This document shows positions 25,487 through 52,004 of a stretch of 64,000 nucleotides of DNA, piece by piece. The stretch comes from Aequitasia blattaphilus (GTDB taxonomy: Bacteria; Bacillota; Clostridia; Lachnospirales; Lachnospiraceae), in NCBI RefSeq assembly GCF_024721305.1, contig NZ_JAMXOD010000005.1, positions 119,071-183,070 of the forward strand. The letters run 5' to 3'. How positions within the stretch are numbered: the first letter of the stretch is position 1; each line of letters opens with the position of its first letter. The notes beneath the pieces are model-generated. The model ran no database searches. It saw only the letters and a list, made by a program, of their open reading frames with translations, and was not told the origin of the DNA. The translations under genes were made by a program, and so were the position numbers.

Positions 25487-25506
25487 GAAAGAGAGGATTA
25501 TCAATT

Positions 25507-25764
25507 ATGACAGAATTTAAATATCTTATTACTGACCCGGAAGGTATTCACGCCAGACCAGCTGGTGAATTAGTGAAACTCGCAAAAACCTTTGCTTCTG
25601 ATATTAAAATCAGTGGTAACGAAAAAGTCGGAGACACGAAAAAGATTTTTTCAATCATGGCACTCTGTATAAAACAAGGACAAGAAGTCACTCTTTCTTG
25701 TGATGGTACAGATGAAGTCGAAGCTGCTGCTGCACTTGAAGGGTTTTTTAAAGAAAATTTGTAA
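25507..25764 (+). CDS. ptsH: HPr-family phosphocarrier with Lys at the regulatory position 46
   Basis: An 85-residue HPr that shuttles phosphate from enzyme I to the sugar permease. The catalytic H15 is intact in GIHARPA. At the position where Gram-positive HPr has regulatory Ser46 (KSIMGVMSL) this protein reads KKIFSIMAL, giving Lys46 and Phe48. It therefore should not be a substrate of HPr kinase or a good CcpA partner, and probably serves transport only. It sits between fruA and ptsI in the fructose operon. Confidence 0.93.
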   Translation: MTEFKYLITDPEGIHARPAGELVKLAKTFASDIKISGNEKVGDTKKIFSIMALCIKQGQEVTLSCDGTDEVEAAAALEGFFKENL

Positions 25765-25785
25765 GATTCGAAAGGAGTCCCGGTC

Positions 25786-31201: not shown

Positions 31202-32608
31202 TCACTCAACCAGTATTATACCGAGTCGGTTTGCAGCTTTTGTGGCATCTTCAATAGAGGGCTGTGCCTTGCGCAGTACCAGTCGTCCACCACCTCTGTT
31301 GAGGGTGTCCACTGAGCAGATGCCTTTGTCCGTAAAGATTGTGATTCTCTGTACGGATTGCTCAGATGCCTCTAAAATCTCCACTTCGATCCCAGCATCT
31401 TTCACCATCTGAACAGATTTGTCATACATTTCATAATCCTCTGTTGATGCACCATACACGGCTCCCATAAGAATGCCCGGGATGTTGATGGATCGTCGCG
31501 CGAACAACTCCGGATATAACTCCACACGCACTTTTTTTATCTTCCCCTCAACCAACTCATGGCAAATCCTTGCCGCATTCGTAGGGCTCCCAACTGCCTG
31601 ACTGCTGCCCCCCACTACTGCATCTCCCAGTGTGCTCAAAATATTTCCAGCACCTTTGGCAAGGCTCTTTGCTTTCTCCGCCGCTTTTTTATTGGTCATC
31701 TGAGTCCTGGCTGCTTCCTTCTCTTTTACTTCCTGGGAAACCAATTCTTCAACTCCTGGCTTACGTTTAAAGAACGGCTCCATATATTTCACAACAGTAG
31801 GGACAATCTCCCTCCCCGATTCCATATGCACCTCTGCTGCCATGGCAAGCATAACATCAAAGGGAACGTTTACATCCATGTCTGCCTTCATACAAAGCTT
31901 TCCAGCATACATCCCAATCAGAATTGCTCCTGCTAAATGACTGGTACATAAAGCAGGCACCAATACTCTTGGTGTACAGGGTACTCCAATTGTGGGAGAC
32001 AACGCTAATACCATCGCTTTTTCCATCTGTTCCGGCGTACCGCCCCCAATCGAAACCGTTGCAGCCGCAATACACGCTGCACCGGCGCCAAAGCCCTCCA
32101 TGTTGCAGCCCGTTGTTACCTTCCCCACCCGGAACAAGCCGCCTATTTTTAAAATCAGCCCTGCTGTTTCGGCAACTACTTCTTCTTCATATCCATGCAT
32201 AATCATTGCTTTTGTGAACCCTGCATAAGGACAAGAATCCCCTGTTCCTGCACAAGGACGAAGGCCAATGCAATGATTTCCCACCTGGGCTGCCAAGGTA
32301 TAAAGTAATGCATCATCCAGAAAGGAATCTGTAAAACACTTTGAGCCCTCTTGCGCGGCTAACTGAGAGGCTACTGTCCCCAAGAGAATACTTTCCCCGT
32401 CCTTCATACCAATTTCCAACGCTCGCAGGTTATGTCTATATTCTTCCATTACCCTCGATAAAATTTCCTCTCTGAAAAGACCGGTTTGTATTGCAGCCTC
32501 AATCAGTACAACATCTGTAACTTTCACATCATATTCTTTGGCTATCTCAATCATTTCACTAACTGTCATTGGAAGCTTGCTTTCTACACTGGCTCGTAAA
32601 TCAGACAT
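31202..32608 (-). CDS. hmd: 2-(Hydroxymethyl)glutarate dehydratase, [4Fe-4S], L-serine-dehydratase-like
   Basis: A 468-residue cytoplasmic enzyme that should remove water from (S)-2-(hydroxymethyl)glutarate to give 2-methyleneglutarate. It aligns with the alpha part of iron-sulfur L-serine dehydratases: C126, the block TGCNMEGFGAGAACIAAA (C168; compare GCQAEVG...MAAA), GGTPEQ, and IGVPCTPRVLVPALC (C211, C221; compare LVCDPV..LVEVPC). These cysteines are the cluster ligands in that family. The C-terminal ~100 residues form a second domain. It is the last gene of the nicotinate operon and overlaps dml by eight bases; that context, not the family alone, gives the substrate. Confidence 0.85.
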   Translation of the reverse strand: MSDLRASVESKLPMTVSEMIEIAKEYDVKVTDVVLIEAAIQTGLFREEILSRVMEEYRHNLRALEIGMKDGESILLGTVASQLAAQEGSKCFTDSFLDDALLYTLAAQVGNHCIGLRPCAGTGDSCPYAGFTKAMIMHGYEEEVVAETAGLILKIGGLFRVGKVTTGCNMEGFGAGAACIAAATVSIGGGTPEQMEKAMVLALSPTIGVPCTPRVLVPALCTSHLAGAILIGMYAGKLCMKADMDVNVPFDVMLAMAAEVHMESGREIVPTVVKYMEPFFKRKPGVEELVSQEVKEKEAARTQMTNKKAAEKAKSLAKGAGNILSTLGDAVVGGSSQAVGSPTNAARICHELVEGKIKKVRVELYPELFARRSINIPGILMGAVYGASTEDYEMYDKSVQMVKDAGIEVEILEASEQSVQRITIFTDKGICSVDTLNRGGGRLVLRKAQPSIEDATKAANRLGIILVE

Positions 32609-33488
32609 TTAAAATGCTCCTTCCTGTGGCATACTTCTCTTCAATTTCTCTGATTTTTGTTAATCCAACAATTTCATTGAAGTCACTAAAAGGAACCATA
32701 CTATCCAGCAACGAAGCTGTTGTATCCTCCTCGCGTGCCGCCTTCCAGAAATCTAACATCGCCTTAGTTTGAACATAGACAGAAGCTGTAGGGTAAATAA
32801 TCAAGTTAAATCCCAAATCCGACAATTCCTTATTTGTTAACTGAGGTGTTCGTCCGCCTTCTACCATATTTGCAAGAGTTAAACATCCGGGAAGCTCCTC
32901 ATTTATACGCTGCATTTCTTTCTTTGACTCAGGAGACTCCACAAAAATAATGTCCGCTCCCGCTTCCTTGTACTTATGAGCACGTTCCAGTGCTGCCCCA
33001 ATCCCCTGGGTGGTAACTGCATCCGTGCGAGCCATAATCATAAAATCAGGGTTTACCCGTGTATCCACTGCCGCCTTTATTTTCCCTATCATTTCTTCCG
33101 TCGGAATCACTTCCCGCCCTGTCATATGTCCACATTTTTTGGGCATCACCTGATCTTCCAGCTGAATCACTGCAACACCAGCTTTTTCATATTCCCGAAC
33201 GGTACGCATTACATTTACAGCATTCCCAAAGCCGGTATCTGCATCAGCAATAACCGGTATTTCCGTACATTCCACCAGGTTTGCAGCCCGGGCAACCATT
33301 TCACTCATCGTCATAAGACCTACATCCGGTTTTCCCAGATGACTGGCAGATTGTCCATATCCTGTCATATATACTGCGTCAAATCCCAGTGTACTAATAA
33401 TTCTTCCGGTGAGCATATCATGGGCTCCCGGTGCTACAATTGTATTCTTTGTAGCAAATAGTTCCCTCATTCGTTTTGGACCATTCAT
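32601..33488 (-). CDS. dml: 2,3-Dimethylmalate lyase
   Basis: A 295-residue member of the isocitrate lyase/PEP mutase superfamily. It should split (2R,3S)-2,3-dimethylmalate into propionate and pyruvate, the last step of the pathway. The active-site loop MPKKCGHMTG holds the catalytic Cys, and Mg-binding acidic residues lie in IADADTGFGN and QLEDQ. By sequence alone it could be called methylisocitrate lyase; the neighbouring dimethylmaleate hydratase genes decide the substrate. It overlaps the upstream glmL-like gene by four bases (ATGA). Confidence 0.88.
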   Translation of the reverse strand: MNGPKRMRELFATKNTIVAPGAHDMLTGRIISTLGFDAVYMTGYGQSASHLGKPDVGLMTMSEMVARAANLVECTEIPVIADADTGFGNAVNVMRTVREYEKAGVAVIQLEDQVMPKKCGHMTGREVIPTEEMIGKIKAAVDTRVNPDFMIMARTDAVTTQGIGAALERAHKYKEAGADIIFVESPESKKEMQRINEELPGCLTLANMVEGGRTPQLTNKELSDLGFNLIIYPTASVYVQTKAMLDFWKAAREEDTTASLLDSMVPFSDFNEIVGLTKIREIEEKYATGRSILNV

Positions 33489-34924
33489 ATCTGTTCGACT
33501 CCTTCTTCTACATATTCTTTTAAAAATCTCAGGACTGCATCTGGATAATGTCTGCTCAGTACACCCATTGCATACAGGAGATAGTCTCTGTCCAGAACAA
33601 TCTGAGGCTTTTCTACTGGAAAAAGAGAAATGCCGGGATTCTCAAAGCAATGCTCCAGTACCTCTTTTCCCTCTTCCGGGTCGGAATGCACAAACATTCC
33701 ACCCACACAGAGTACCTTTCCAACGTTTCTCAAATCACGGCCTACTGCCGTTCCTGCCATTATTCCCATCACCGGGTCAGAAACCTTAGCATAGTGTCCG
33801 GCATGACGTCGAAGAGATACGTTAATGGCACATGTAGCAAGTGCCCTCTCCAATACTCTTTCTTCCTCTGTCTGAGGTACGTAATCCGGATACGTCTCAA
33901 GGTGACAGGCAAATCTCAGGACCTCTTCACCAGTCGCCTTACAATTTTGTCCACCTGCATGAATAATTGCCTCTGTTCCAACAGTCTCTGGTATCCCTGT
34001 TGCACTTACACGCATTCCCAGATTGCCTTCTACTGTACGGTAAGAAAATTGTTTTTCATTATTGATAACCAAACCACGCTCTTCTATTGCCAACTCCTCA
34101 AGCTCCGGTAAAACCGAATGAATATCTGTTGTTGCACCACCTATATCCACCAAAATGAGCGCTCCAATCCCCTCCTCTTCATAGGTGCCTTTTGCCAATA
34201 GTTCACTGGCAAGAAGTACTGCTCCAGGAGTAGGTACTACCCTCTGATCAGCTAACCCCTCACGAAATTCAACCAGCCCTTTCCCTTGGGTAATCTGTCG
34301 GATGAACTGTTCATGGATTGACTCCCGGGCTGACTTTACCCGAAGTTCATGGATGGTTGGCAATATATTAGGAACACAAACACAACGGATTCCAGCTTTC
34401 ATAAGCTTTTGGGAAACCTTTCTTTGAGCGCTCTTGTTACAGGCCACAATAACAGTAGCCTGACTGGGAAGCTTGCAAATCATTTCAGCATTTTCCAATA
34501 CACATTTCTCATCTCCTCCGTCTGTTCCACCTGAAAGTAAAATGATATCTGGATTAATTTCTAGTAAAACCTCTCTTCGGTAGTTTAATGGTTCGTCTGC
34601 TGAAATCACCTGCATCACTCTGGCACCTGCAGTCATAGCCACCTCCTTAGCTGCTTTGACAGTCACACGAGGCATATACCCAAGGGCCACCATACGGAGA
34701 CCACCTGCTGCACTGCAGGAACTATAGCGCTTCACATCTTTCTCAAGTTCTATTCCCTGCTTTCTTACACTTTCTTCTGCTCTTTTTGCGCCTTTTCCAA
34801 TATTCTCAATGGTGGTAAGAGACTGTCCTCTCCCGAGAAAGCTAAGCTTTCCCTCTTCAAGGCGAAAAGCGGCTGCCTTTGTATAGGTGCTTCCTACATC
34901 GTAGACTACAATATTTCCCTGCAT
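33485..34924 (-). CDS. glmL: GlmL/MutL-family companion of a B12-dependent mutase
   Basis: A 479-residue protein of the glutamate-mutase-L family, with an actin-like ATPase fold: the first phosphate loop VVYDVGSTYTKAAAF at the N-terminus and VDIGGATTDIHS in the middle. Members sit next to adenosylcobalamin-dependent carbon-skeleton mutases and are thought to reactivate or repair them. Here it follows mii and the methyleneglutarate mutase, so it most likely serves that enzyme. It overlaps dml by four bases. Confidence 0.85.
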   Translation of the reverse strand: MQGNIVVYDVGSTYTKAAAFRLEEGKLSFLGRGQSLTTIENIGKGAKRAEESVRKQGIELEKDVKRYSSCSAAGGLRMVALGYMPRVTVKAAKEVAMTAGARVMQVISADEPLNYRREVLLEINPDIILLSGGTDGGDEKCVLENAEMICKLPSQATVIVACNKSAQRKVSQKLMKAGIRCVCVPNILPTIHELRVKSARESIHEQFIRQITQGKGLVEFREGLADQRVVPTPGAVLLASELLAKGTYEEEGIGALILVDIGGATTDIHSVLPELEELAIEERGLVINNEKQFSYRTVEGNLGMRVSATGIPETVGTEAIIHAGGQNCKATGEEVLRFACHLETYPDYVPQTEEERVLERALATCAINVSLRRHAGHYAKVSDPVMGIMAGTAVGRDLRNVGKVLCVGGMFVHSDPEEGKEVLEHCFENPGISLFPVEKPQIVLDRDYLLYAMGVLSRHYPDAVLRFLKEYVEEGVEQI

Positions 34925-34948
34925 CCCTTCTCCCTCCCTTTTACCATA

Positions 34949-36061
34949 CTATTCTTCATTTGGAATCAATACATAGCCTTCCATCAGCCGTCGGGCAGTA
35001 CGTACAAGAGCGGCTTTCTTAACCTGAATTCCATCTACCTCAGCCACAACAGGAATCACACCCGCTGGATGTCCAATGCGTATCTTTTCCAGTTTCTCTG
35101 CATCGTCTATCATCTGATTTACAATCGTCCCATTGATTTTAGCAGCAGCACCAGTACAAGCTGTTGCTGTTCCTGCGTAGGTCTTGTGTACCACCTGCAT
35201 AAACATCAGCCTGGAAACAATATCCACTTCCTTTTTGGGAATAACCTTGCCCGATGTAAAATCGATAGAATCCTCTGCCTTTGTTACAAAGGCAAGCATT
35301 GGAAATGCTGGTGAAGATGTCATGCCAATCATGTCACAGCACTTGGTTCGTATTTCCTCCAGGTAATCCAACAAAGTACTGTTTCCATCTATCACCGCCG
35401 GCTCCTCTGTACCCTTCATATTCACATCGGCTGCGCGAATAAACACACAAGGATTCGCTACATCTACAATCGAAACTTCTATTGATCCCTGACTGGTTTC
35501 CAAGACGTCTATAGGATTACCTGTTGGCAGAACTTTTCCCGTAGCTGCACCGGCAGTCGCTGCAAAATCCATCCATATCGGCGCTCCCATTCCAGGAACA
35601 CCTGCGATTATACAATCTCCTTTGACACGGGCTTTTCCATCCCTTACCTGCACCTCACCATACAACATTTTTCCTGTGTTAGTATTATAGATTCGCACCC
35701 TTGTCACAGGCTCCTTTGCTTCAATTAACGATTCGTCAATTGCAAATGGTCCCACTCCTGAGGAAATATTCCCACAATTACCACTGTAGTCTACAACCCT
35801 CTCATGGATTGACACTTGAGCAAAGGTATAGTCTACATCTGCATCCTCTCGATTTGATGAACCAACAATGGCAAGCTTACTTGTCAGGGGATCCGCTCCT
35901 CCCAGACCATCTATCTGACGTACACCCGGACTGCCGAAAATACGTAGAATCTCTTCATCTCTCCGCTTTGGATCAGTGGGAAGATCATTGGCCTTTATAT
36001 AAATCCCTTTACTGGTTCCTCCTCGAATGATAACGACTGGAATCCTTTTCTGCTCCCTCAT
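34949..36061 (-). CDS. mii: 3-Methylitaconate delta-isomerase
   Basis: A 370-residue PrpF-type protein with the diaminopimelate-epimerase-like double fold. It should move the double bond of (R)-3-methylitaconate to give 2,3-dimethylmaleate, without cofactor. The conserved RGGTSKG (Ser17) and GADPLTSK (Lys62) line the predicted active site, and SGNCGNISS and TACTGAAAK are other family motifs. It overlaps the mutase gene upstream by four bases. PrpF relatives isomerise 2-methylaconitate; the operon context favours methylitaconate. Confidence 0.9.
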
Positions 36062-38433
36062 AAAACATCATCTCCTTTTTTTATCTTTTCCTCAATCAGT
36101 CTTGTAATCGTCTCAAGACACTGCTCCGGCGTAGAGTTCGGTCCAAAAAAAGCATCCACTCCCAGAAAACCTACACCTTCTTCTTTTATTTTCTCTTCAT
36201 AGAAATTGTGTTCTTCCTCTTTCTCTGCAATCCTGCCACCTGCCCAGACAACCATTTGATCTCTTAGCCCCAGTTCCTTTAATCGCTGGGATACTCGGGG
36301 GAAAAGAGTTCCTCCTAAACCAAGAAGGTTACTCACACCAATTGCATCTGCATTCACTTCAGCTGCTACCTCTGCCACCGTCTCCGGCAGATTCATTCCT
36401 CGCAGAAAGACCACATCAAATCCTGCATGCTGAAAGGTCTCCCGAATCAAATTGACACCATTGACATGGGCATCTGCTCCAATTGTAGCAACCACAATTT
36501 TCTGTGAACGTGTGGGCTCCCGTTCCGGCTCCACATGGACATCCTGAGCCGTAATTGCAACCCTGGAAGAATCAACCATTTGAGGAGTGTACCCTGGTAT
36601 ATAACGTTTGATTCCATCTGGATCACGGTTTACCTTCACAAACCGCTTCAAATCCCATCCACCTGCTCTGGGACAATCCAGCTTTCCGGATTTACCTCCC
36701 TCAACAATCAAGTCAATAAGCTCTGTATCTTTCCACTGCATCCAAAATTGAGGTGTAATAGCCTTTGGCTTCAAACTACGTTCCGGAAGGTTTAGTACCG
36801 CCTCTAACACAGCCATTGCCTCCTCCAGAATCTCTTTCTTTCGTTCCGTGATACGGCTGTCTTCAATATCCACTCCATAAGTATTTGTGAATACATTGTT
36901 GGTTCCCCAAATCGCCCGTCCCATGGATGATCCCGTTGGGATTCCTACGGATTCAGCTGCCTTTGGCCGGTAAAAATCGGCACCTCCCAGTTTTGCATTA
37001 ACCGCCATGCGGGCAAAGTGTGCAGCTTCTGCAATTAAATCCTCCGGCGGACTTTGAAATGTTTCCGGAACAACAATTAATCCATCACTCCACAAGGTTT
37101 CCCGGAAAGCACGCATAAGGGCTAAATCAGCAAAAATGTTAATTCCACCCACATTCATCTGTATGGCTGAAAGCTCTCTGGGAAGTCCGCTATGAATCGC
37201 CAGTCCTTCTGCAAGAAGACACATAGCAAGAGCCATGCCGTCTGTTCCTCCTATATTGTTCAAATGCTTGTGAGACTCCAGCTGAACATAAATATTGTTT
37301 TCTCCGCAAATCTGCAGTGCTTTATAACCATTTTCCACCTTCGTTCTGTAGTCATGAATCCCCCTTCCACCAAAGTGAACATGGAGAACCGGTCCAATAT
37401 CGGTGCCGTCAAATCCAGCAATAAAAGCATTTAATATTGAAAGATGAGGTGTATCACCGGTGGCATTAATGCGCAGGGGATGCTTTACCCCTCCACCCAT
37501 CTGGATAAACTCCCTTTCTCCTTTTGGTGTGATACCGCCCTTTCCTCTGGATTGGTCTATAAGCTCACGTCCTTTAAGAGGATCTATATGACGGGTCGCC
37601 TCACTGTGGACAAAATGAAATAAAGTCTCATCTAATTTCTCTGCAAAAGCATACATTTCTTCTGATTCCTTAATGGTCTCCTCTGCTGAATTTCGTCCAA
37701 GAATCGGATTCTGCACAGGCCATCCCCGTTCTCTTGCCTTTCTTGCCAATTCATAAATACGGTAACCACTGCGCACAGTGCCGGCCACCTCACGGGGATA
37801 CGGTGCCGGAAGTCCTGTCACCTCTCCATTTTCATCAATATCCGGCATCACAACACCGAAGCACTCTCCGTAAGCTCGTAAAGCTTCTATATCCTCTTTA
37901 ATAATTTGTTTCGTTTTTTTCTGCATTGTCAGGTTTCTCCTTGATATTAGTCCTAATTCCATACGAACACGGGGAATCAATCCTCCCCATTGCAATGTCT
38001 TACTTGTAATTTCTGATATCGCCTTAAGATTTTGAATCACTCCTTCTGAAATAAACTGTCCTTTATCCAAATCCGCTTCACAGATATCTCCTGTTTTCAC
38101 AAAATCTACTACATCAGCCTCCCATACAGGTAATCCAATGTTAATGGCATTACGGCGGAAAATCCGGGCAAAGCTTTTGGCAATTATTAAAGAGACTCCA
38201 AACTGTTTCAACGCAAGAGGAGCTTGCTCTCTGGAAGAACCACATCCAAAATTACGTCCGGCAACTAGGATTGCTCCTGGAGTGCAAATCGATTGGAAGT
38301 CAAACTCCGCCAGCCCGGTCATAGCGTATTCTCCCAGCTTGTCGTAAGGCTCTGACATGGCGTAGCCGGGAAGAATCTGATCCGTATCCACATCATCACC
38401 TAAAACAACTATCTTTCCTTTGATTCTCTCCAT
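36058..38433 (-). CDS. dmdB-mgm: Fusion: 2,3-dimethylmaleate hydratase small subunit + 2-methyleneglutarate mutase
   Basis: A single 791-residue frame joining two enzymes. Residues 1-165 are an aconitase-type swivel domain ([28 protein letters not shown]), the DmdB partner of DmdA. From Met170 to the end is an adenosylcobalamin-dependent mutase converting 2-methyleneglutarate to (R)-3-methylitaconate. Its C-terminal B12-binding domain has GADAHVNG (the DxHxxG motif, near 654), GVSNLLG and WAGGR. The two are separate proteins in E. barkeri. Met170 (ATG at 37924-37926) is preceded by AAGGAG at 37937-37942, so a mutase-only product of 622 residues may also be made. Start: ATG 38433, with AAGGAG upstream, rather than GTG 38442. 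Confidence 0.88.
37924..37942 (-). promoter_or_regulatory. Retained internal ribosome site and start for mgm inside the fused frame
   Basis: Minus-strand AAGGAG (37937-37942) lies ten bases before an in-frame ATG (37924-37926) at the exact border between the hydratase and mutase domains. It is probably the original start site of a formerly separate mgm gene, possibly still used. Confidence 0.6.
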
Positions 38434-38434
38434 A

Positions 38435-39625
38435 TTACACACTCCTTGCTGGCACAGTGATTTTCCCTGCCACCGCAGTCTCTGCCGCAGTAGCGGGAGA
38501 AGCCAAATAAATCTCCGTCTTTAAATTTCCCATGCGTCCAGGAAAATTGCGGTTTGTAGTTGATACAACTATATCCCGCTCATTGGTTAAGCCTTCATGT
38601 GCACCAAAACATGGTCCACATCCAGGATTCAACACCGTGGCTCCTGCATCCCGGATCACCTTGCACCATCCCAGCTCTTCCATCTCTTTCAGCACTTCCT
38701 TTGAAGAAGGTATAATCAATGTGTTTACATCTGGATGTACCGACTTTCCCTCAAAAACCTTTACCACCTGTGCCATATCATACAGACGTCCATTCGTACA
38801 GGAACCTATTACCACCTGAGTAACAGGCTTCCCTTCTACTTCCTTCACTGTTACCACATTAGCCGGTGAAAAGGGACAGGCAATCTGCGGTTCCAGTATA
38901 TTTAAATCAATTTCCCGCAGCTCCGTGGTATCAGAGTCATATTCTATGCCTCCAAAAAGAGTAATCATTGCACCAAGCTCGATTCCCATATTGCATACGG
39001 TCATTCTCTCGGAAATTGAAAACTTTTCAATCCCCGGACCAGTAAAAAGAAGCCCTCGATCCACAAAATAGTCTGTGCCAAATAGTTTCCCCAAATAAAG
39101 AATCAAATCTTTTCCAAATACGTTAGAAGGACATTTTCCATGAAGGTAAATTTGAACCACCTCAGGAACCTCCAGATCCAATCTGCCAGTCGCCATTACC
39201 GCTGCCAGCTCTGTTGAACCAACTCCAATTCCAATGGCTCCATATCCTCCACAGGTTCCCGTATGGGAATCTGCAATTACTACCAGTTCACCTGGCTGTA
39301 CACAGTGCTTTTCATAGATTAACTGGTGTATTACCCCTTCTCCCCGCTGGTAGAGACGAATTCCAAACTCCTTGGCGAAATCACTCATAACCCATACATT
39401 GTTCCTGGCTTTCTCTGTTGAAGCGGGATAAATATGATCTGCAACAAAGACTACTTTTTCCGGGTCAAACACCTTATCTACTCCAATCTTGCGGAACATA
39501 TCGATTGCAATTGGAGCCGTAACATCATGAGCCCCAGCCAAACTCACCTTACAGGAAATCTCCTGCCCTGGATCAACTTTTTCCATATCGGCTGCTTTCG
39601 CCAAATATTTTTCAATTATATTCAT
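38435..39625 (-). CDS. dmdA: 2,3-Dimethylmaleate hydratase large subunit
   Basis: A 396-residue aconitase-family protein of the short homoaconitase/isopropylmalate isomerase type. It carries the [4Fe-4S] cluster: VIGSCTNGR and NPGCGPCFG supply the three cysteines, and [12 protein letters not shown] a substrate/cluster loop. With the swivel subunit encoded next (as part of the fusion) it should hydrate 2,3-dimethylmaleate to (2R,3S)-2,3-dimethylmalate. Its last codons contain the ribosome site of that gene. Family alone would also allow isopropylmalate isomerase; no leucine genes are near. Confidence 0.9.
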
Positions 39626-39641
39626 TTTTTCATCTTCTTTC

Positions 39642-41906: not shown

Positions 41907-42384
41907 GTTTCAATGCCCCCTTTGCGTCCCTTGCTGTTTTCACAGCTTGAAAAATCTTTGCGTAACCGGTACAACGGCACAGATTACCAGACATAGCCTG
42001 CTTTATTTCTTCATCTCCAGCTTTTGGGTTCTTATCCAAAAGAGCTTTTGCCGCCAGAATCATCCCTGGTGTACAGTATCCACATTGTACCGCTCCCACA
42101 TCCATAAATGCCTTCTGGATGTAGTTTGGTTTCCCATTTTCAGACACGCCTTCCAAGGTAACAATTTGGCTCCCCTCCGCCTGCCCCACAAGCATAAGGC
42201 ATGAGGTTACAGCTTCCCCATTAAAAATAATTGTACATGCACCGCACTCTCCCTCACCACAGCCTTCCTTAACACTGGTTAGATCCATATCCTCTCTGAG
42301 AAAATCCACCAGACGCTTATTGGGCTCTGTTAAGACAACGACATCCTTGCCATTCAGATTAAAATTAATTGTAATCTTCTCCAT
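41896..42384 (-). CDS. ndhS: Nicotinate dehydrogenase [2Fe-2S] subunit
   Basis: A 162-residue protein with the two [2Fe-2S] clusters typical of small subunits of molybdenum hydroxylases. The N-terminal plant-ferredoxin-type site uses C42, C47, C50 and C62 ([11 protein letters not shown]). The C-terminal helical site uses C101, C104, C136 and C138 ([14 protein letters not shown]). It passes electrons from the molybdenum site to the FAD subunit encoded directly upstream. Length and motifs are complete. Confidence 0.93.
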
Positions 42385-42401
42385 ACTAATCTCTCCTCGT
42401 T

Positions 42402-43268
42402 TTATGCCAATTCAAAATCGGATAAAATCTGCTCAAAGCAACCCATTGCTGCGCCACGAACGCCTTCCCTCTTGTAAACCACAGAAGGGCGGGTCGCAAT
42501 GGTCTTCTGAACCACTGCGGTAAAAAGGGGTAGGCTTTCACGAAAAACATTCCTGGCAACTGGCTTATCCCGTAAAGCAGCTTCCACCTCTGGTACCCGC
42601 ATTGGATGTTTCCCCACTGCACCCAGCACTACACGGCAATCCTCGATTCTATTGTCCAGACTCCTTTTTATATAAATACTTACGGCCAAAACCACAATTG
42701 CCAATGACTTTCTTTTCCCGATTTTGAAGTACCCTACCCCTTCATTTCTATTGAGCATCGGTATACGAACCTCCGTAAGAAGCTCATCTGGTCGAATCTG
42801 ACACCTTCCAGGTCCTTCGTTAAATTCATCAATCGTCATGACACGTTCCCCTTTTGTACTCCTGAGCACAAGCTCTCCACCATAAGCAAGGAGCGTAGTT
42901 GGCGAATCTCCTGCCACCGAGGCATTTACAACATTTCCCCCAATGGTACCCAGATTTCGAATCTGAGGAGATCCCACATGTACAACTGTTTCATGCAAGG
43001 CTGGAAGCATTGCCCTAATCCACTGATCCTTCTCCAATGCTGCAAAAGTATTCAAGGCTCCTATTCTTATGTGGGTATCCTGACGAATGTAACGCAATTC
43101 ATCAATTCTGCTGATATCAATTACATGAGCAGGAGTCTTTTTTCTCTCATTTAATTCAATAACCACATCGGTACCACCAGCCACTAGAGCAGAATCTTCT
43201 TTATAAACAGCAAGAAGTTCTAAGGCTTCCCCTATCCCAGCTGGCGTGTGATAAGTAAATTTTTTCAC
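42402..43268 (-). CDS. ndhF: Nicotinate dehydrogenase FAD subunit
   Basis: A 288-residue FAD-binding subunit of the CO dehydrogenase/xanthine dehydrogenase type. It carries the FAD pyrophosphate loops LVAGGTDVVIELN and GTIGGNVVNASVAGD, and C-terminal CO_deh_flav_C features. I use the GTG at 43268 (AAAGGAG eight bases upstream), three bases after the stop of hgd; the ATG at 43316 lies inside hgd and gives a basic extension foreign to the family. It should deliver electrons to NADP+ as in the known nicotinate dehydrogenase. Confidence 0.9.
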   Translation of the reverse strand: MKKFTYHTPAGIGEALELLAVYKEDSALVAGGTDVVIELNERKKTPAHVIDISRIDELRYIRQDTHIRIGALNTFAALEKDQWIRAMLPALHETVVHVGSPQIRNLGTIGGNVVNASVAGDSPTTLLAYGGELVLRSTKGERVMTIDEFNEGPGRCQIRPDELLTEVRIPMLNRNEGVGYFKIGKRKSLAIVVLAVSIYIKRSLDNRIEDCRVVLGAVGKHPMRVPEVEAALRDKPVARNVFRESLPLFTAVVQKTIATRPSVVYKREGVRGAAMGCFEQILSDFELA

Positions 43269-43270
43269 AC

Positions 43271-44167
43271 TCAATGCTCCTTTCCGCTGATTTCTATTTC
43301 TATTAAGTCTTCCCAAATCTTTACAATGGAAGACATATCCCTCCGATTCAATCCCTTTGCCCTTGCCGTCTCATAAACTTGTGCCGCCGTCGCAGTAACT
43401 GGAAGGGGAACCGCTTCTTCCTTTGACGCTTCCAATGCAATACCAAGGTCTTTATGCTGAAGATCAACGGCAAAGCCTCCGGAATAGCTGTTTGCCATAA
43501 TGAACTTTTCCAGCTTTGCTTCCAATGCATAGCTTCTTCCAGAGCTCTTTGAAATAACCTCTCTCATGATTTCCACAGACAATCCGCATTTTACGCCTAA
43601 GGCAAGAGCCTCTGCCAAGGCAGCCATATTGCAGCCCAGCAAAAGATTATTAATCATTTTTATAGCATCTCCACAACCAACTTCACCTACGTGATAAATG
43701 TTTTTTCCAAGAACCTCAAAGAGAGGCTTCACTTTAAAAAACGTATCGTCCTTCCCGCCAACCATAATGGTCAAGGTTCCCGCAGATGCGCCAGAAACAC
43801 CGCCACTTACCGGCGCATCTATGTAGTCGATTCCATATTCTTCTGCTTTTTTTGCAATCCTTTTTGAACTGCCTGGTGAAACAGAGCTCATATCAATAAT
43901 AATCGTCCCTTGCCTGCTGTTTTTAAAGACCCCATCTTCTCCAGTCATTACAGCTTCTACAATTTTTGCATTTGGCAATGAGGAAATAATGGTATCCGAT
44001 TTCGAGGCAAGCTCTGCTACTGTCTTGCATCCTCCCGTTACCTTCTCCTCCAATTCCTTCACCACTTCGTCTCTTACGTCATACACATAAACCTCATATC
44101 CTGCTCCCATAAGATTCAAAGCCATCGGCTTCCCCATTGCACCTAATCCTATCAATCCAATTTTCAT
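43271..44167 (-). CDS. hgd: 2-(Hydroxymethyl)glutarate dehydrogenase
   Basis: A 298-residue beta-hydroxyacid dehydrogenase (3-hydroxyisobutyrate dehydrogenase family). It should reduce (S)-2-formylglutarate, the product of enamidase, to (S)-2-(hydroxymethyl)glutarate with NADH. The N-terminal Rossmann motif GLIGLGAMGKPMA, the substrate loop DAPVSGGVSGA and the catalytic Lys in AIKMINNLLLG are present. Similar proteins reduce tartronate semialdehyde or succinate semialdehyde; the operon decides the substrate. Confidence 0.9.
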   Translation of the reverse strand: MKIGLIGLGAMGKPMALNLMGAGYEVYVYDVRDEVVKELEEKVTGGCKTVAELASKSDTIISSLPNAKIVEAVMTGEDGVFKNSRQGTIIIDMSSVSPGSSKRIAKKAEEYGIDYIDAPVSGGVSGASAGTLTIMVGGKDDTFFKVKPLFEVLGKNIYHVGEVGCGDAIKMINNLLLGCNMAALAEALALGVKCGLSVEIMREVISKSSGRSYALEAKLEKFIMANSYSGGFAVDLQHKDLGIALEASKEEAVPLPVTATAAQVYETARAKGLNRRDMSSIVKIWEDLIEIEISGKEH

Positions 44168-44193
44168 ACTTTATCTCCGATTTCTACTTTTAT

Positions 44194-44772
44194 TTAGCGT
44201 AATCCATCTTCCCCTTTAATCTCAGAAACTTGAAGCCCTCCGATACGTGGATGAGGACGTCCACCTGTGGTAAAAGCCAAAGCCACCACAATTTCATTCC
44301 ATTTTGGTGCATCCGGAATGCGCACTTCCATGGCATCATAGTGGGTGCGAACGAAAGCCGCATCCTTGTAATGAAGTGGAACATCTAAGGTCGTTCCGGC
44401 TGGTCCTGTTTTTTTAGCGGAAGGGATAATTGATTTCCCTCCTCCAATTGCTTCCCGCATTGGCTTTCCAAGTTTCGGATGCAGTATGGCCGCCCCATGC
44501 TCAAGCTCTCCATCCAGACCAATAATGGCACCTTTTCCGTAGCTCTGTACTGGCAGTCTCAGTGCCTCTGCTGCTTTCTTGCTTAAATAATCACCTAAAT
44601 ACTCTCCTATCTCTGAAAGCTCACTTAAATCCTCTGTGTAGCCTCCTGCAAAAGGATTTTCAATAACGGCTGCTACTGTGCAGCGTTTAATCGGAATCTC
44701 CATAGGAGTAAATCCCTCTCTGTGAATCACTTCAATATTTGTCACAACTTTTCGAATTACCGGTACTTTCAT
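44194..44772 (-). CDS. AA_synth-family protein (PF06684-like), role in pathway unknown
   Basis: A 192-residue protein of the poorly understood 'amino acid synthesis' family (DUF1185). Hallmarks are AAVIENPFAGGYTEDL, SYGKGAIIGLDGELEHGAAILHPKLG, the basic stretch SAKKTGPAGTTLDVPLHYKDAAFVR and a C-terminal ALAFTTGGRPHPRIGGL. No enzyme of the classical nicotinate route belongs to this family. Family members often accompany amidohydrolases and catabolic genes, so a lactam or imine hydrolysis or proofreading step near enamidase is conceivable, but that is speculation. Confidence 0.75.
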   Translation of the reverse strand: MKVPVIRKVVTNIEVIHREGFTPMEIPIKRCTVAAVIENPFAGGYTEDLSELSEIGEYLGDYLSKKAAEALRLPVQSYGKGAIIGLDGELEHGAAILHPKLGKPMREAIGGGKSIIPSAKKTGPAGTTLDVPLHYKDAAFVRTHYDAMEVRIPDAPKWNEIVVALAFTTGGRPHPRIGGLQVSEIKGEDGLR

Positions 44773-44790
44773 CTCTATAAAACCTCTCTT

Positions 44791-45657
44791 TCATTTTTCC
44801 ATTTTTAATAATCCTCCCGGATCATAGTGCACCGTATTTCCTTGAACAGTGGCAATACATGCCAATAGTTTTCCCTTGTGATACTGTTTCTCCCCCTCTT
44901 CTAAAACCTGGGCAAGAGCTCGTTTTATTTCCTCTTCACCAAGTACATCTAAATGAGTTACCACTCGTTGGTCTGCAATGTCGCTTCCCGGCTCTACATT
45001 CCCTGCCAATTCTGTATGAACTCTGGGAGAAGAGATGTAAGAGCAATCTGCCAAAAATGTAGCAAGTGCATCTGCATCTCTGCAATACTTCGAGAATGCG
45101 GTTACTCCACTTGCAATCCCAGTTGTTAAGCTTCGTCCTCCCAGTCCACTGGTTGCAATTCCACCAATCCCTTCTTCTGCCTCAAGATTCAACACTTGAT
45201 TAACACCAGCACAGCTGACATCATAAACCACTCCCAACGAAAGGCGTTCTCCTTTACTTAACCTTACCGCTATATCTCCTCCATTATTCACCACTACCTT
45301 CTCTGCTCCATTTTTCTGTAGAAAATCAGCTACCCTGTCCGACATTGCTCCCGCAACAGCCGCCATTGGTGTAAGGTTTTGACTTCTCGTATTTACAACT
45401 GCCTGAGCCATTTCCAATGGGATTCCGGACAGATTTTCAAGGTCAAGCTCTGAGGGATAACAACGAAGAAGTTCATGATAACGATGAATTTCTTCTAAAC
45501 CTCCCTTAATAACCGAAAAGGCTGAGCTACACAATTTCGTATCAAGCTTTCCTCCCCGATAAGCAGAAACAACCATGGACACCGGTCCATAATCAAAAAA
45601 CACCTGTCCGGAAGGCAAAATCCAGAACCCTTCTTTTTCTCCTTTATCTTTCCTCAC
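44791..45657 (-). CDS. UPF0280 family (ApbE-like) protein
   Basis: A 288-residue protein of the UPF0280 family, distantly related to the ApbE flavin transferase fold. Visible are MAAVAGAMSDRVADFL, VVNNGGDIAVRL and IATSGLGGRSLTTGIASGVTAFS, which resemble the FAD- and metal-binding loops of ApbE. It overlaps the start region of hnr's 3' end by 14 bases, so the two are tightly coupled. A role in attaching or inserting a flavin into 6-hydroxynicotinate reductase is plausible by position only. Confidence 0.8.
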   Translation of the reverse strand: MRKDKGEKEGFWILPSGQVFFDYGPVSMVVSAYRGGKLDTKLCSSAFSVIKGGLEEIHRYHELLRCYPSELDLENLSGIPLEMAQAVVNTRSQNLTPMAAVAGAMSDRVADFLQKNGAEKVVVNNGGDIAVRLSKGERLSLGVVYDVSCAGVNQVLNLEAEEGIGGIATSGLGGRSLTTGIASGVTAFSKYCRDADALATFLADCSYISSPRVHTELAGNVEPGSDIADQRVVTHLDVLGEEEIKRALAQVLEEGEKQYHKGKLLACIATVQGNTVHYDPGGLLKMEK

Positions 45658-47173
45658 CTGCCCACTCCTTTTCTACTTCTTCCCGGAGCTGCTTTGCAGG
45701 ACGTATTACATTCATGTGTCCACCTATTTTCTCATAATCCTCTCTTGTCATCGTATACTCAATCGGGGCTACTGTAGCCGGTGTAGGAACCCATGTAAAA
45801 CCATGGTCAACTACTTTTCCAGCATCCACCATAAAATTAATTCCTCCTCCCGGAAGCACATAAGCTGGCGCCCCACCTACTGTAACCACTGCTTTTCCTG
45901 CATGTACTGCTCTGGTGATTCCAAGGGGCTTTGTACAGACTCCACCTCTTGCACTTCCTCCAGTTCCACCTACATACAGAACGGAAGTCTGAGATACTTC
46001 ACAGTTGTTCATTATCTCGTCTGCCAGAGCCATCGCCTTCTTTGTCATTGAAATCTCTCTCACCTCTCCATGGGCTTGTACTTCAAATAAAGCTCGTATT
46101 TCACCTGTTGTATTAATCACCAATATCTGCATTCCAACCCGGGCAACAGACATATCAATTCCACCGATAGCATCTCTGGGTGTTTGAATATCAGTTCCTC
46201 CTATTCCGTCTCCATGCTCTCCAAAATAGCGGCCTTTTGAAGATTTTGCAGCATTGGGGATTACACCGCTCCATTCCATTCCCACCTCTGCTCCTGCCAG
46301 ATGTTCTGTGAAAAGGCCTACAACGTGATGATCTATGACAATCACCTCATCTACCGCTTCCTTCATCTTCTGTGCAAACAGTCCAACCGTTGCACTGCCG
46401 CAGCCAATACGCATCCTGGATTCTTCTTTTCCATCAATGACAGGAGGCCTTCCCTGCTGTACTTTTATTTTGGTTTTTCGATTTATAGTAAGCTCCACAG
46501 CTTCGCCATTTGCAAGATTTACAATCGTCCTGGCTACTACGAATCCATCTGCACCTGTCAGCTTATTCGCTCCTCCTATTGCAATCATTTTCGAGCCGTA
46601 TTCTTCTGTGTTAATCATCCCCACCTGCTTGCCTTCACAGTAAACCGGATCACCCTCTTCTCCAATATACGTATTGGTATCCAGCTTTACCGTAACACCT
46701 GAATAGCTCAGAGGCGCTTCTGTCACTACCGTCACAACCTCCACACCATCACGTACTTCTGCAACGATATGAGGTGCTGGCCGAATACATGGATAATTCG
46801 TGCCTGCACCAACTCCTGTAACAACCGGTCCATTCAGTCGATAGTCCGGATATTCCCCTACCCCACTTTTTAGCACCAGTTTACGATTGCGCACCAGTCT
46901 GCCCCCTTGATTGGTATATCTTTTACAGGCTCCTGTGTATCCCTCCGGCACACGACACTGTACCGGACAAGAGGAACAAATCACACTTGTATCTGAAATG
47001 TCCTGGGTTCGGATAATCCCATTAAATTTACAGACCCGGACACAAATCCCACACTCTGCACACTGTTCTTTCTTCCACACAACCTTGCGGTCAATGATCC
47101 GAATTGCATCCAGAGGGCAGTTTTTCTCACAAGCTTTACATCCCTTACATGCATCTTGATTAATGATTATCAT
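45644..47173 (-). CDS. hnr: 6-Hydroxynicotinate reductase
   Basis: A 509-residue iron-sulfur flavoprotein that should reduce 6-hydroxynicotinate to 1,4,5,6-tetrahydro-6-oxonicotinate with reduced ferredoxin. The N-terminus is a 2[4Fe-4S] ferredoxin domain with cysteines 9, 12, 15, 19 and 38, 41, 44, 48. More cysteines follow in ICSSCPVQC and GAC. The remaining ~430 residues are Gly-rich and specific to this reductase. The length and ferredoxin head agree with the E. barkeri enzyme. It follows the enamidase gene by 25 bases. Confidence 0.9.
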   Translation of the reverse strand: MIIINQDACKGCKACEKNCPLDAIRIIDRKVVWKKEQCAECGICVRVCKFNGIIRTQDISDTSVICSSCPVQCRVPEGYTGACKRYTNQGGRLVRNRKLVLKSGVGEYPDYRLNGPVVTGVGAGTNYPCIRPAPHIVAEVRDGVEVVTVVTEAPLSYSGVTVKLDTNTYIGEEGDPVYCEGKQVGMINTEEYGSKMIAIGGANKLTGADGFVVARTIVNLANGEAVELTINRKTKIKVQQGRPPVIDGKEESRMRIGCGSATVGLFAQKMKEAVDEVIVIDHHVVGLFTEHLAGAEVGMEWSGVIPNAAKSSKGRYFGEHGDGIGGTDIQTPRDAIGGIDMSVARVGMQILVINTTGEIRALFEVQAHGEVREISMTKKAMALADEIMNNCEVSQTSVLYVGGTGGSARGGVCTKPLGITRAVHAGKAVVTVGGAPAYVLPGGGINFMVDAGKVVDHGFTWVPTPATVAPIEYTMTREDYEKIGGHMNVIRPAKQLREEVEKEWAGEER

Positions 47174-47198
47174 AATTTACTTGCCTCCTTTTGCACTT

Positions 47199-48362
47199 CT
47201 AATCTATGAGCTTCGCCGAACGCTTACAGGGAGGTGTGTTACGGCTCTTTGTGACTTGAACTTCACCGTCTATCATAATCAGACTGATTCCCGGTATATC
47301 TCCACATTCAAAAGCCTCTGCTGCCGTGTCTGCCACTGACCCCATAGGAGCATCCATGCATACGAAATCAGCTTCTCGTCCCACTGCAATAATTCCCGTG
47401 TTTAAACCGTATACCCTTGCTGTATTTCCAGTTGCCATACAAAGGGCAATTGAACCCGGAATTCCTGAGACAGCAGATATCTGACAGATATTTCGGAGAA
47501 TTCCCAGAGAAACCACTCCAGAACCAGAGGGTGCATCATTGCCAAAAATAATACGTCCCAGTTCTCCCTTCATACTGGCGCGGCGCGCCACATAATCCGC
47601 CACTCTTGCGTTGCCGCATTGTACAATTTCCATGGCAAATTCTGTTTCATCCATAAGTTTGTCAATCTCCTTTAAGGAAACGGCTGTCGGTCCTCCATTT
47701 ATGTGAGAAATAATATCTGGCTTTGTAGCCATAACCTGTTCTGCCGTTACTGTAGAGCTGCCTGGAATCGAAGTCCCTCCTGTATGCATCTGAACCTTAA
47801 ACCCATACTTATGTGCCCACTCTACCATTGGTCCTGCGTCCGTTGGATTCTTCACACTGCCCAGTCCAACCTCCCCGACAATCCAAACCCCTTGTTCTCT
47901 CAATTCCTTGAAATCATTTTCCACCAACCCTTTTTCAAGAATCAGTGCACCTCCATGTACTTTCATACCTCCAGGGCGAAGGTTTTCAAAGGATTTATGT
48001 GCCAGCACTGCCAAAGCCTTCGTCCCCACTGCGTCTCTGGGTCTGCCTGGTGTATGGCACTCTCCTGCCGAAATAACCGTAGTGACCCCTCCATGAAGCT
48101 CTCCTGTTAGAAAATTATCTGCAAACTGTCTTGGAGTATGTTCCCCAATTACGGTATGAACATGAGAATCAAATAATCCTGGCGTTACGGTAGCTCCAGC
48201 GGCATCTATTATTTTGTCTGCCTGAAACTGCCCCATATCACCCTTATCTCCAATGGCTGCGATTTTTCCCTCTGATACCACAATTTGATTGCCTTCCAGT
48301 ACGGGATTCTTAATATCCCCACTTAAAATCATCCCTATATTTTGAATCACTGTAATACTCAT
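47199..48362 (-). CDS. ena: Enamidase
   Basis: A 387-residue amidohydrolase that should open the ring of 1,4,5,6-tetrahydro-6-oxonicotinate, releasing ammonia and (S)-2-formylglutarate. The metal site is clear: H67 and H69 in FDSHVHT, a bridging-ligand region in VGEVGLGS, His in QMHTGG and SHINGG, and the catalytic Asp in FGNDAPSG. The fold resembles dihydroorotase/imidazolonepropionase; the specific call rests on the adjacent reductase and dehydrogenase. Confidence 0.92.
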   Translation of the reverse strand: MSITVIQNIGMILSGDIKNPVLEGNQIVVSEGKIAAIGDKGDMGQFQADKIIDAAGATVTPGLFDSHVHTVIGEHTPRQFADNFLTGELHGGVTTVISAGECHTPGRPRDAVGTKALAVLAHKSFENLRPGGMKVHGGALILEKGLVENDFKELREQGVWIVGEVGLGSVKNPTDAGPMVEWAHKYGFKVQMHTGGTSIPGSSTVTAEQVMATKPDIISHINGGPTAVSLKEIDKLMDETEFAMEIVQCGNARVADYVARRASMKGELGRIIFGNDAPSGSGVVSLGILRNICQISAVSGIPGSIALCMATGNTARVYGLNTGIIAVGREADFVCMDAPMGSVADTAAEAFECGDIPGISLIMIDGEVQVTKSRNTPPCKRSAKLID

Positions 48363-48393
48363 ATATAAAAGCTCCTTCCTTTTTCATGTACAT

Positions 48394-49503
48394 TTATACC
48401 AGTTTGTAATCTCCCATAGAAATCCATCCTTTTTTTCTCATAAGCTCTGAAACCACCAGAGAAATCACCCCTGGTAAAATAACACAGATGAGAGCTAAAC
48501 CAATCCAGTCCAATGCTCCTGGATGAACCCCACTCATTCCTGCTGCAAGAGCAATATCACTTGGGGAAAGCCATCCCGTAATCACCCCAATTGGCCCAAC
48601 CAGTCCACACGTACCCATTCCTGAAGAAATTGGTGTTCCATTCATCTGAAGCTGAAAAATACAGGTAGCTATTGGGCCCGTTATAAAAGATGCAATCACA
48701 GCCGGAAGCCAGAGAACAGGCTTTTTCAACAAGTTGGGAACCAACAGCATGGATGTTCCTATTCCAATAGAGACCAGCCCATTCATCTTATTTTCCCGAT
48801 AGGAACATACTGCAAACCCTACCATTTGCGCGCAGCACCCTGCCACTGCAGCACCTCCTGCCAGACCAACCAGTCCCAGTGCCGCACAAACAGCAGCGGA
48901 GCTGATAGGAAGCGTAAGTATGATACCAACAATTACCGAAACTAAGATTCCCATGACAAAGGGCTGTTGATCCGTTGCCCACATAATAATTCCTCCCAGA
49001 GAGCTGGCAGCTCTGCCGATTGGTGGTGCAAGAAATTTTGCAACTAACACACCAATCAGGATGGTGACAGAAGGTGTGACAATAAGGTCAACAGGGGTAC
49101 GTTTGGAGACTAGTTTCCCAAAAAAGACTGCAATCAAAGCTATAAAATAAACTGCCAGGGGTCCTCCTGCACCACCCAGTGAATTGGCCGCAAACCCCAC
49201 TGTTGCCAAAGAGTAAAGCACGAAAGGTGATGCCCCCACAGAATACCCTATCGCAATGGCCATTGCCGCTCCCTGAATCTCTCTTGTATACCCGGCCACC
49301 TCTGCCAAAAATTCTCCTGCTGTACCTGGAATAAACATTCCGATTGTACTGATGATGGTTCCGATGAGCAGCGAAGCAAACAGGCCATGGGCCATTCCTC
49401 CTAATGCCTGTATTCCGATGCGATTCCAAGAAAACTCAATATTCTGTTCTTGCATATACTTTTTAAATCCCGTTAATTCCTGACTATTCTTTTGATTTGA
49501 CAT
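48394..49503 (-). CDS. PTS_EIIC_2-like membrane protein, candidate nicotinate transporter
   Basis: A 369-residue polytopic membrane protein of about ten Gly/Ala-rich segments, resembling the PF13303 'PTS EIIC-like' family (segments GLFASLLIGTIISTIG, RTPVDLIVTPSVTI, NGTPISSGMGTCGLVGP). No EIIA or EIIB is fused or encoded nearby, so sugar phosphotransfer is unlikely. As the first gene of the nicotinate operon, and the only transporter in it, it most plausibly imports nicotinate. GGAGG precedes the ATG. Substrate is inference. Confidence 0.75.
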   Translation of the reverse strand: MSNQKNSQELTGFKKYMQEQNIEFSWNRIGIQALGGMAHGLFASLLIGTIISTIGMFIPGTAGEFLAEVAGYTREIQGAAMAIAIGYSVGASPFVLYSLATVGFAANSLGGAGGPLAVYFIALIAVFFGKLVSKRTPVDLIVTPSVTILIGVLVAKFLAPPIGRAASSLGGIIMWATDQQPFVMGILVSVIVGIILTLPISSAAVCAALGLVGLAGGAAVAGCCAQMVGFAVCSYRENKMNGLVSIGIGTSMLLVPNLLKKPVLWLPAVIASFITGPIATCIFQLQMNGTPISSGMGTCGLVGPIGVITGWLSPSDIALAAGMSGVHPGALDWIGLALICVILPGVISLVVSELMRKKGWISMGDYKLV

Positions 49504-49652: not shown

Positions 49653-49713
49653 TAATATATCATTCGTACTATTTATTTACAAATATATTTATCATTATGC
49701 GAACAGTGTTTTG

Positions 49714-49730
49714 TATATGTTTTACATATA
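49714..49730. promoter_or_regulatory. Candidate LysR binding palindrome
   Basis: Perfect 17-base inverted repeat TATATGT-TTT-ACATATA containing T-N11-A spacings typical of LysR boxes. It ends 11 bases before the lysR start codon, in the divergent control region, so it could serve autoregulation. Confidence 0.5.
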
Positions 49731-49741
49731 AGGTGGTGACT

Positions 49742-52004
<2,263 letters not shown>

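Follow-up and report, generated by a model that had tools for sequence, protein, structure and literature searches.

We analysed a 64,000-nt window of the Aequitasia blattaphilus genome (contig NZ_JAMXOD010000005.1, forward-strand positions 119,071-183,070), in which 15 consecutive open reading frames (ORFs), all on the minus strand and running from position 49503 down to 31202, very probably make up a complete nicotinate fermentation operon of the Eubacterium barkeri type (Table 1; coordinates are window positions). That level of confidence covers the pathway and excludes the helper roles proposed below for the UPF0280 and PF06684 proteins. The 14 junctions range from a 46-bp overlap to a gap of 31 bp, which agrees with a preliminary description of this DNA as fifteen same-strand genes with overlaps or short gaps. 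Because the spacing is so tight, the block would be transcribed as a single unit. Terminator-like sites in the block number 19, against a shuffle mean of 14.7 (sd 4.0), and every listed minus-strand site lies inside a gene; with promoter-like and terminator-like counts both near the shuffle level, no functional promoter or terminator can be claimed. The 46-bp overlap is that of NdhF with Hgd. NdhF aligns with chain C of PDB entry 3hrd from residue 18 onward only, so its TTG start was probably mis-called and the true start would lie about 50 bp downstream. A LysR gene and a GdhA gene outside 31202-49503 are members of the same conserved block, since Pseudoflavonifractor loci show the same arrangement: among the loci compared (L numbers; genomes have G numbers), LysR is conserved in place in L002-L005 and GdhA stands beside it in L002-L004. 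The window has no tRNA and no Rfam match.

The nicotinate fermentation cluster of E. barkeri is said to have been described by Alhapel et al. in 2006. Set against that cluster, all nine steps have a candidate in the window, within one gene run, as the preliminary description had claimed, and its reading of the block as a nicotinate fermentation operon is strengthened by four enzymes whose best match is a solved E. barkeri protein. Ndh, Ena, Hgd and Mii are closest to PDB entries 3hrd, 2vun, 3cky and 3g7k, respectively, all of which we take to be E. barkeri proteins, and the runners-up reached E values of 3e-07 (Ena), 1.6e-61 (Hgd) and 2.3e-65 (Mii). The 754-residue NdhLM protein matches 3hrd_A (E 2.2e-181) and 3hrd_B (E 6e-120) end to end in one chain, and for the large, medium and FAD parts of Ndh, three of its four chains, the top matches are the A, B and C chains. 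The alignment with E. barkeri proteins proposed earlier covered these four enzymes and was positive for them. The possibility raised alongside it, that the proteins would cluster with methylcitrate or leucine enzymes, was examined and did not hold. Dml scored 284.6 bits against the PrpB equivalog (cut-off 354.4) and Mii 260.5 bits against PrpF (cut-off 440.55), and DmdA and DmdB lie below the LeuC, LeuD and homoaconitase equivalog cut-offs and above some broader subfamily cut-offs.

By profile and PDB searches, DmdA, DmdB, Mgm, MgmL, Dml, NdhS and Hmd belong to the expected families or lie close to them, and Fer4 models match 48 of 49 Hnr proteins. MgmL scored 305.8 bits with TIGR01319 (cut-off 204.05) and fell below the GlmL equivalog cut-off. 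Gene order is conserved elsewhere: Pseudoflavonifractor gallinarum (L002) shares the order GdhA-LysR / EIIC-Ena-Hnr-UPF0280-PF06684-Hgd-NdhF-S-LM-DmdA-DmdB-Mgm, at which point its locus ends, and Treponema (L010) and Acetobacterium bakii (L014) carry Mgm, Mii, MgmL, Dml and Hmd arranged as in the window. The A. blattaphilus genome also encodes YqeB, which marks the maturation of selenium-dependent molybdenum hydroxylases; of 13 other genomes searched, 11 have it. Its presence is as expected if Ndh is a selenium enzyme like that of E. barkeri.

Two points weigh against the assignment of a complete pathway. The E. barkeri comparison covers four of the enzymes (Ndh, Ena, Hgd and Mii), and Hmd resembles serine dehydratase weakly, with a PF03313 score of 25.3 bits that falls below the cut-off of 26.4. 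We infer the assignments of Hnr, Hmd, Mgm, DmdAB and Dml from family, synteny with other clusters and the completeness of the pathway, and flux, regulation and transport from sequence in the same way. Homologues of Hmd, 62-70% identical and some of them partial, occur in six other nicotinate loci. The pathway is rare but already known, and the preliminary description had read it soundly.

In the scheme that we propose, the EIIC-like protein, a homologue of which occurs in 12 of 79 enamidase loci, would import nicotinate, Ndh would hydroxylate it at position 6, and Hnr would carry out a ferredoxin-driven reduction of the ring. Ena would then open the ring to give 2-formylglutarate and ammonia, after which Hgd, Hmd, Mgm (with its reactivase MgmL), Mii, DmdAB and Dml would lead to propionate and pyruvate. 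LysR would control the operon and GdhA would fix the ammonia; UPF0280 would mature Hnr, most likely by attaching flavin, and PF06684 would work with the enamidase, perhaps on its enamine product. Nicotinate fermentation is a famous piece of biochemistry that few organisms are known to perform; PMC12934955 cites the E. barkeri process as an example of vitamin catabolism. If our reading is correct, a gut-type clostridium carries the complete cluster, and vitamin B3 could be consumed there, not only made.

Table 1. Genes of the candidate nicotinate fermentation block and adjoining genes, in window coordinates.
Feature	Position	Strand	Evidence
PTS_EIIC_2 membrane protein, candidate nicotinate importer	48394..49503	-	PF13303 E 1.6e-85; transport role predicted
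Ena, enamidase	47199..48362	-	PDB 2vun, residues 1-386, E 3.2e-174
Hnr, predicted 6-hydroxynicotinate reductase	45644..47173	-	2[4Fe-4S] head, further Cys motif, core domain; Fer4 domains; linkage to Ena
UPF0280/COG2122 ApbE-like protein, proposed Hnr maturation factor (flavin attachment)	44791..45657	-	PF02424 and NF003322 scores (see text); Hnr linkage
PF06684 (DUF1185, "AA_synth") protein, proposed enamine-product helper of enamidase	44194..44772	-	PF06684 E 1.1e-68; PDB 2qtp/3byq
Hgd, 2-(hydroxymethyl)glutarate dehydrogenase	43271..44167	-	PDB 3cky E 5.1e-112
NdhF, nicotinate dehydrogenase FAD subunit	42402..43316	-	PDB 3hrd_C, query residues 18-301, E 8.5e-53
NdhS, predicted [2Fe-2S] subunit	41896..42384	-	XdhC-type model NF043084 E 5.3e-55
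NdhLM, fused large and medium molybdopterin subunits	39642..41906	-	3hrd_A on 2-418, 3hrd_B on 428-746
DmdA, predicted dimethylmalate dehydratase large subunit	38435..39625	-	NF001614 (aconitase/IPMD large-subunit family) 438 bits, cut-off 385; below LeuC/HacA equivalogs
DmdB-Mgm fused ORF, predicted dehydratase small subunit and B12-dependent 2-methyleneglutarate mutase	36058..38442	-	LEUD_arch 9-159, B12-binding 648-745
Mii, 3-methylitaconate isomerase	34949..36061	-	PDB 3g7k E 2e-165
MgmL, GlmL/MutL-type, probable Mgm reactivase	33485..34924	-	PF13941 E 9.9e-129
Dml, predicted 2,3-dimethylmalate lyase	32601..33488	-	closest solved relatives 1zlp and, fourth, 3fa3 (2,3-dimethylmalate lyase); below PrpB cut-off
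Hmd, predicted 2-(hydroxymethyl)glutarate dehydratase	31202..32608	-	distant L-serine dehydratase alpha relative; TIGR00718 38.8 bits, cut-off 243.2
LysR regulator, divergent	49697..50638	+	same place in L002-L005
GdhA, NADP glutamate dehydrogenase, probable ammonia sink	50667..52004	+	NF006929 726.7 bits, cut-off 536

The window differs from E. barkeri in its host, which is near Lachnospiraceae, and in two gene fusions, NdhL-NdhM and DmdB-Mgm. The first is widespread. NdhL and NdhM form one ORF in 47 of the 55 loci that hold both, and in 7 of 14 among Bacillota; in three of the 55, from Rokubacteria, the match is about 30% and another molybdenum enzyme may be encoded. According to PMC10331938, the E. 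barkeri cluster has four separate Ndh subunits. The second fusion was seen only in the window, against 15 other genomes. The 794-residue product corresponds to DmdB over residues ~1-165 and to Mgm over ~173-794, and a Mgm match was found in 15 of 35 genomes searched, in none of which do DmdB and Mgm share one open frame. In most relatives shown, DmdB stops shortly after a common 12-residue sequence or a close variant of it, whereas the window reads on into Mgm and keeps, just past the position of the relatives' stop, an AGGAGA ribosome-binding site and ATG for Mgm. Internal initiation may yield a separate Mgm despite the fused frame. These features fit either a recent stop loss or an error, and an assembly or base-calling error, favored by the absence of the fusion from all 15 genomes and by the retained initiation signals, has in our estimate only slightly less than an even chance. 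The arrangement in the nearest relative (G201) argues for a genuine event: there, as in G218 and G209, the two genes share a frame and only one stop codon separates them, so that one substitution could suffice for fusion.

Around the ring-opening enzymes, two further families are conserved. The best 80 of 95 matches from a genome scan with Ena, kept as 79 loci, come from Bacillota, Rokubacteria and Alphaproteobacteria, from many sulfate-reducing and related Deltaproteobacteria and from two Treponema. Where Ena is flanked by 5 kb or more in both directions (42 loci), PF06684 occurs 41 times, Hnr 38 times, NdhL 37 times and UPF0280 36 times. Hnr occurs in 62 of the 79 loci, and in 54 of those 62 UPF0280 is found on the same strand, within 425 bp of Hnr in 53 cases and at 1702 bp in the other. 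Seven of the eight Hnr loci that lack UPF0280 end inside Hnr or no more than 400 bp from it. A second sample was picked on Hnr alone and comprised 11 loci from among 14 other Hnr genomes; in all 11, UPF0280 lies directly downstream of Hnr. One of these loci (L172) carries an Hnr 99.8% identical to that of L007, and none of the other ten exceeds 63.2% identity to the 52 full-length Hnr proteins of the first set. Loci of this kind share ancestry, so that the counts are not independent events; the first set nonetheless spans phyla. PF06684 was found in 2 of 391 genomes of the class, both Hnr-positive. The third Hnr genome of the class (G593, 77% complete) yielded no PF06684, and its only UPF0280 is of the second kind described below (91.7 bits). 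That two families of unsettled function, UPF0280 and PF06684, usually travel with key nicotinate enzymes is, on comparative genomic grounds, a lead in its own right.

UPF0280, which we take to be COG2122, has two homes. It occurs in 52 of the 391 class genomes, and with a profile of Hnr-linked members the two Hnr-linked copies score 333-345 bits and the 50 others 72-101 bits. The second kind adjoins a homologous protein of ~390 residues in 9 of 9 extended loci and, in 8 of the 9, also a smaller protein common to them; Pfam scans of two loci confirmed these neighbors as HcyBio (PF01837, presumably COG1900/DUF39) and a NIL-ferredoxin protein. A tree of UPF0280 proteins of at least 200 residues, with identical and shorter ones dropped, held 78 distinct sequences, of which 55 are Hnr-linked, 23 HcyBio-linked and none neither, and one branch divides the two groups (SH-aLRT 100). 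Seventeen of the 23 HcyBio-linked proteins come from loci chosen by UPF0280 alone and six from loci chosen by HcyBio. The reverse linkage is looser: of 23 loci chosen by HcyBio (L142-L165), mostly from sulfate reducers, UPF0280 is present in 6 and absent within the ~1.5-kb flank in 17, where it may lie elsewhere or be missing. As described by Price et al. 2018 (PMC5764234), the homocysteine system comprises HcyBio (COG1900/DUF39), a NIL/ferredoxin protein and COG2122; it shares with the Hnr locus the UPF0280/COG2122 family and a ferredoxin, and differs in that it makes homocysteine and in that its UPF0280 members form a separate clade.

Hnr and HcyBio may themselves be related. Their comparison was prompted by the shared partner, and homology between the Hnr core and HcyBio is, on suggestive evidence, somewhat probable. 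In HMMER searches the HcyBio profile ranked Hnr first, with Hnr proteins as its top 21 non-self matches (best E 0.028), and the reverse search ranked HcyBio first (E 0.16); the pair is one of 4 weak reciprocal pairs (12 in all) among 49 families. The families share a motif, V[DE]VVTxxTxxP[LM]xxSG, in which HcyBio carries a cysteine (PMCSSG) where Hnr has PLSYSG. Its V[DE]VVT portion occurs in 49 of 65 Hnr and 24 of 45 HcyBio sequences (counts that take in fragments and repeats) and in none of 2239 other proteins. Two collinear segments sum to 51.1, a value reached by 0 of 400 column shuffles, and the best single segment was equaled by 1 of 400; column shuffles are a lenient control, and the family members are not independent. 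With a curated alignment HcyBio ranks first, and Hnr ranks first by collinear sum (50.5 vs 45.4) and second by single score. Chance resemblance, with UPF0280 working on two unrelated proteins, is nevertheless a real possibility. The best single E values are modest, the motif was picked after the alignment had been seen, a hhalign comparison gave P 0.024, a first hhalign control with automatic alignments ranked HcyBio second and Hnr third of 48 families, and PF01837 was not found for 49 Hnr proteins at E up to 10 among the 25 of 29 families listed. Searches for solved relatives gave, for HcyBio, nothing above chance level, and for Hnr the 60 matches listed of 220 all fall on the ferredoxin head. 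It is the motif, the collinear segments, with first rank by collinear sum in both directions, and the common partner family that incline us toward homology. Two Hnr proteins stand apart in other respects: an alphaproteobacterial one (L074:4353-5831) has only 36 residues before the end of the four-Cys motif and, if its start was called correctly, appears to have no 2[4Fe-4S] head, and a genome with a normal Hnr encodes a second, divergent Hnr-like protein (G984:C22:112668-113933; 407 bits, 597-residue frame).

Turning to the function of UPF0280, we propose that it matures Hnr, most likely by attaching flavin. The window protein passes the PF02424 ApbE cut-off narrowly (26.0 bits against 25.6, over residues 93-177 only) and scores 179 bits with NF003322, below the cut-off of 290. 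The family keeps invariant GGD and D-A-x-A-T motifs, which we take to be ApbE signatures. The Hnr of E. barkeri reportedly contains a covalently bound flavin together with one [2Fe-2S] and two [4Fe-4S] clusters (ascribed to Alhapel et al. 2006); eight nearly invariant ferredoxin cysteines and four invariant ones (C66/C69/C73/C83) in our alignment would fit these clusters. Candidate flavin-acceptor residues of Hnr are position 262 (T in 44 and S in 5 of 49), 464 (T in 49 of 49) and 467 (T in 45 of 49). No sulfur takes part in the Hnr reaction, and cofactor attachment is therefore the likelier role common to both systems. A search of open-licence literature, where absence is weak evidence, found nothing for UPF0280, nor for an ApbE flavin transferase with nicotinate.

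Two points count against flavin attachment as the role of UPF0280. One locus, L031, is a true exception in which Hnr has no adjoining UPF0280 and PF06684 lies ~170 bp past the Hnr match. The homology of COG2122 to ApbE seems not to reach the flavin-binding region, according to Price et al. 2018 (PMC5764234), who also report that others have proposed a persulfide role for COG2122. Delivery of sulfur to Hnr, or help in assembling its Fe-S clusters, as others have proposed for its relative MA1715 in sulfide assimilation, would accord with that published proposal for the HcyBio-linked form (PMC5764234 and PMC12068725) and with the at least 12 conserved cysteines of Hnr; the sulfur-free chemistry of Hnr, the retained motifs and the ApbE score, narrow as it is, make it the less likely role, though a possible one.

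The pairing of UPF0280 with Hnr turns the COG2122 question into a two-protein experiment with a target that is reportedly covalently flavinylated. A broader proposal is tentative and, in our judgment, rather doubtful: Hnr, a ring-reducing enzyme, would be a hidden member of the COG1900/HcyBio superfamily that has lost the sulfur-carrying cysteine, COG2122 would be the superfamily's dedicated maturation factor in both settings, attaching flavin, and PF06684 would be an enamine deaminase-like partner of the enamidase. If this is true, COG2122 would gain a biochemical function, and its part in anaerobic homocysteine synthesis would be reinterpreted.

The chorismate mutase-like fold is also that of the RidA enamine deaminases. 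The PF06684 protein of the window matched PDB entries 2qtp (E 1.1e-56) and 3byq, and belongs to the same family as BB2672 and SPO0826, PF06684/DUF1185 proteins whose fold is a variant of Bacillus chorismate mutase according to PMC2954203. That paper infers a role in amino-acid metabolism from gene neighbors; here the neighbor is the enamidase, across phyla. Fold and linkage together suggest that PF06684 acts with the enamidase, perhaps on its enamine product, which gives the family a concrete substrate hypothesis. Six alphaproteobacterial enamidase loci (L075-L080) have two PF06684 copies each, close together. Of seven proteins scanned near PF06684 in L079 and L067, only one had a match in Pfam at E 1e-8, which is too little for an interpretation of these neighbors.

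The operon was probably gained as a block by horizontal transfer into a bacterium close to Lachnospiraceae. RpoB of the host, compared across 13 genomes (two without a match), is 88% identical to that of a congener, 83% to L022 (a Lachnospiraceae record genome), 77% to RUG409 (L005) and 66% to P. gallinarum (L002, partial). In the Ena tree the window groups with Pseudoflavonifractor and RUG409 (support 100/100), and 13 operon query pieces were found in L002 at 59-85% identity; Mii, MgmL, Dml and Hmd are not among them, the L002 locus ending inside Mgm. Horizontal acquisition is the simplest reading, since the block is shared with Pseudoflavonifractor although RpoB puts the host nearer Lachnospiraceae. 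The other two congeners have no enamidase at the threshold used, and G+C content is 45.6% in the operon and 38.8% and 39.6% in the flanks. The PF06684 gene, at 79% identity to a Treponema copy, 72% to Acetobacterium and 59% to P. gallinarum, is unlike most of its neighbors, a hint of gene replacement or mosaic exchange inside the operon.

Counting the host genome, Hnr occurs in 3 of 391 genomes of the class and 15 of 398 of the phylum. That the block degrades nicotinate only in part, or acts on an analogue such as another pyridine carboxylate while its lower genes serve some other 2-methyleneglutarate or methylcitrate-like route, is very unlikely: the two halves do part elsewhere (all 35 genomes searched have Ena, and Mgm was found in 15 of them but gave no match at E 1e-60 in the other 20, comprising 6 Bacillota and 14 others), but the solved E. 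barkeri enzymes are by far the best solved matches of Hgd, Mii and Ena, and upper and lower genes form one tight run here.

Within the family, Mgm was found in 2 of 200 genomes, that of A. blattaphilus and G170. The G170 homologue (L083:11460-13307; 615 residues, 70% identical) was considered as a sign of a second nicotinate operon in the family and dropped, since no other operon gene matched within 19.9 kb and it sits in a cell-division cluster with PBP, MurD-like, FtsW, EPSP synthase family, PNP, amidohydrolase, FtsZ and SpoIIGA genes. Elsewhere in the window, a cluster of a PTS transporter, PTS enzyme I and a DeoR regulator lies near the operon (23594-28177), and positions 2454-9926 encode a 2490-residue protein with Flg_new (Listeria-Bacteroides) repeats that is probably surface-exposed.

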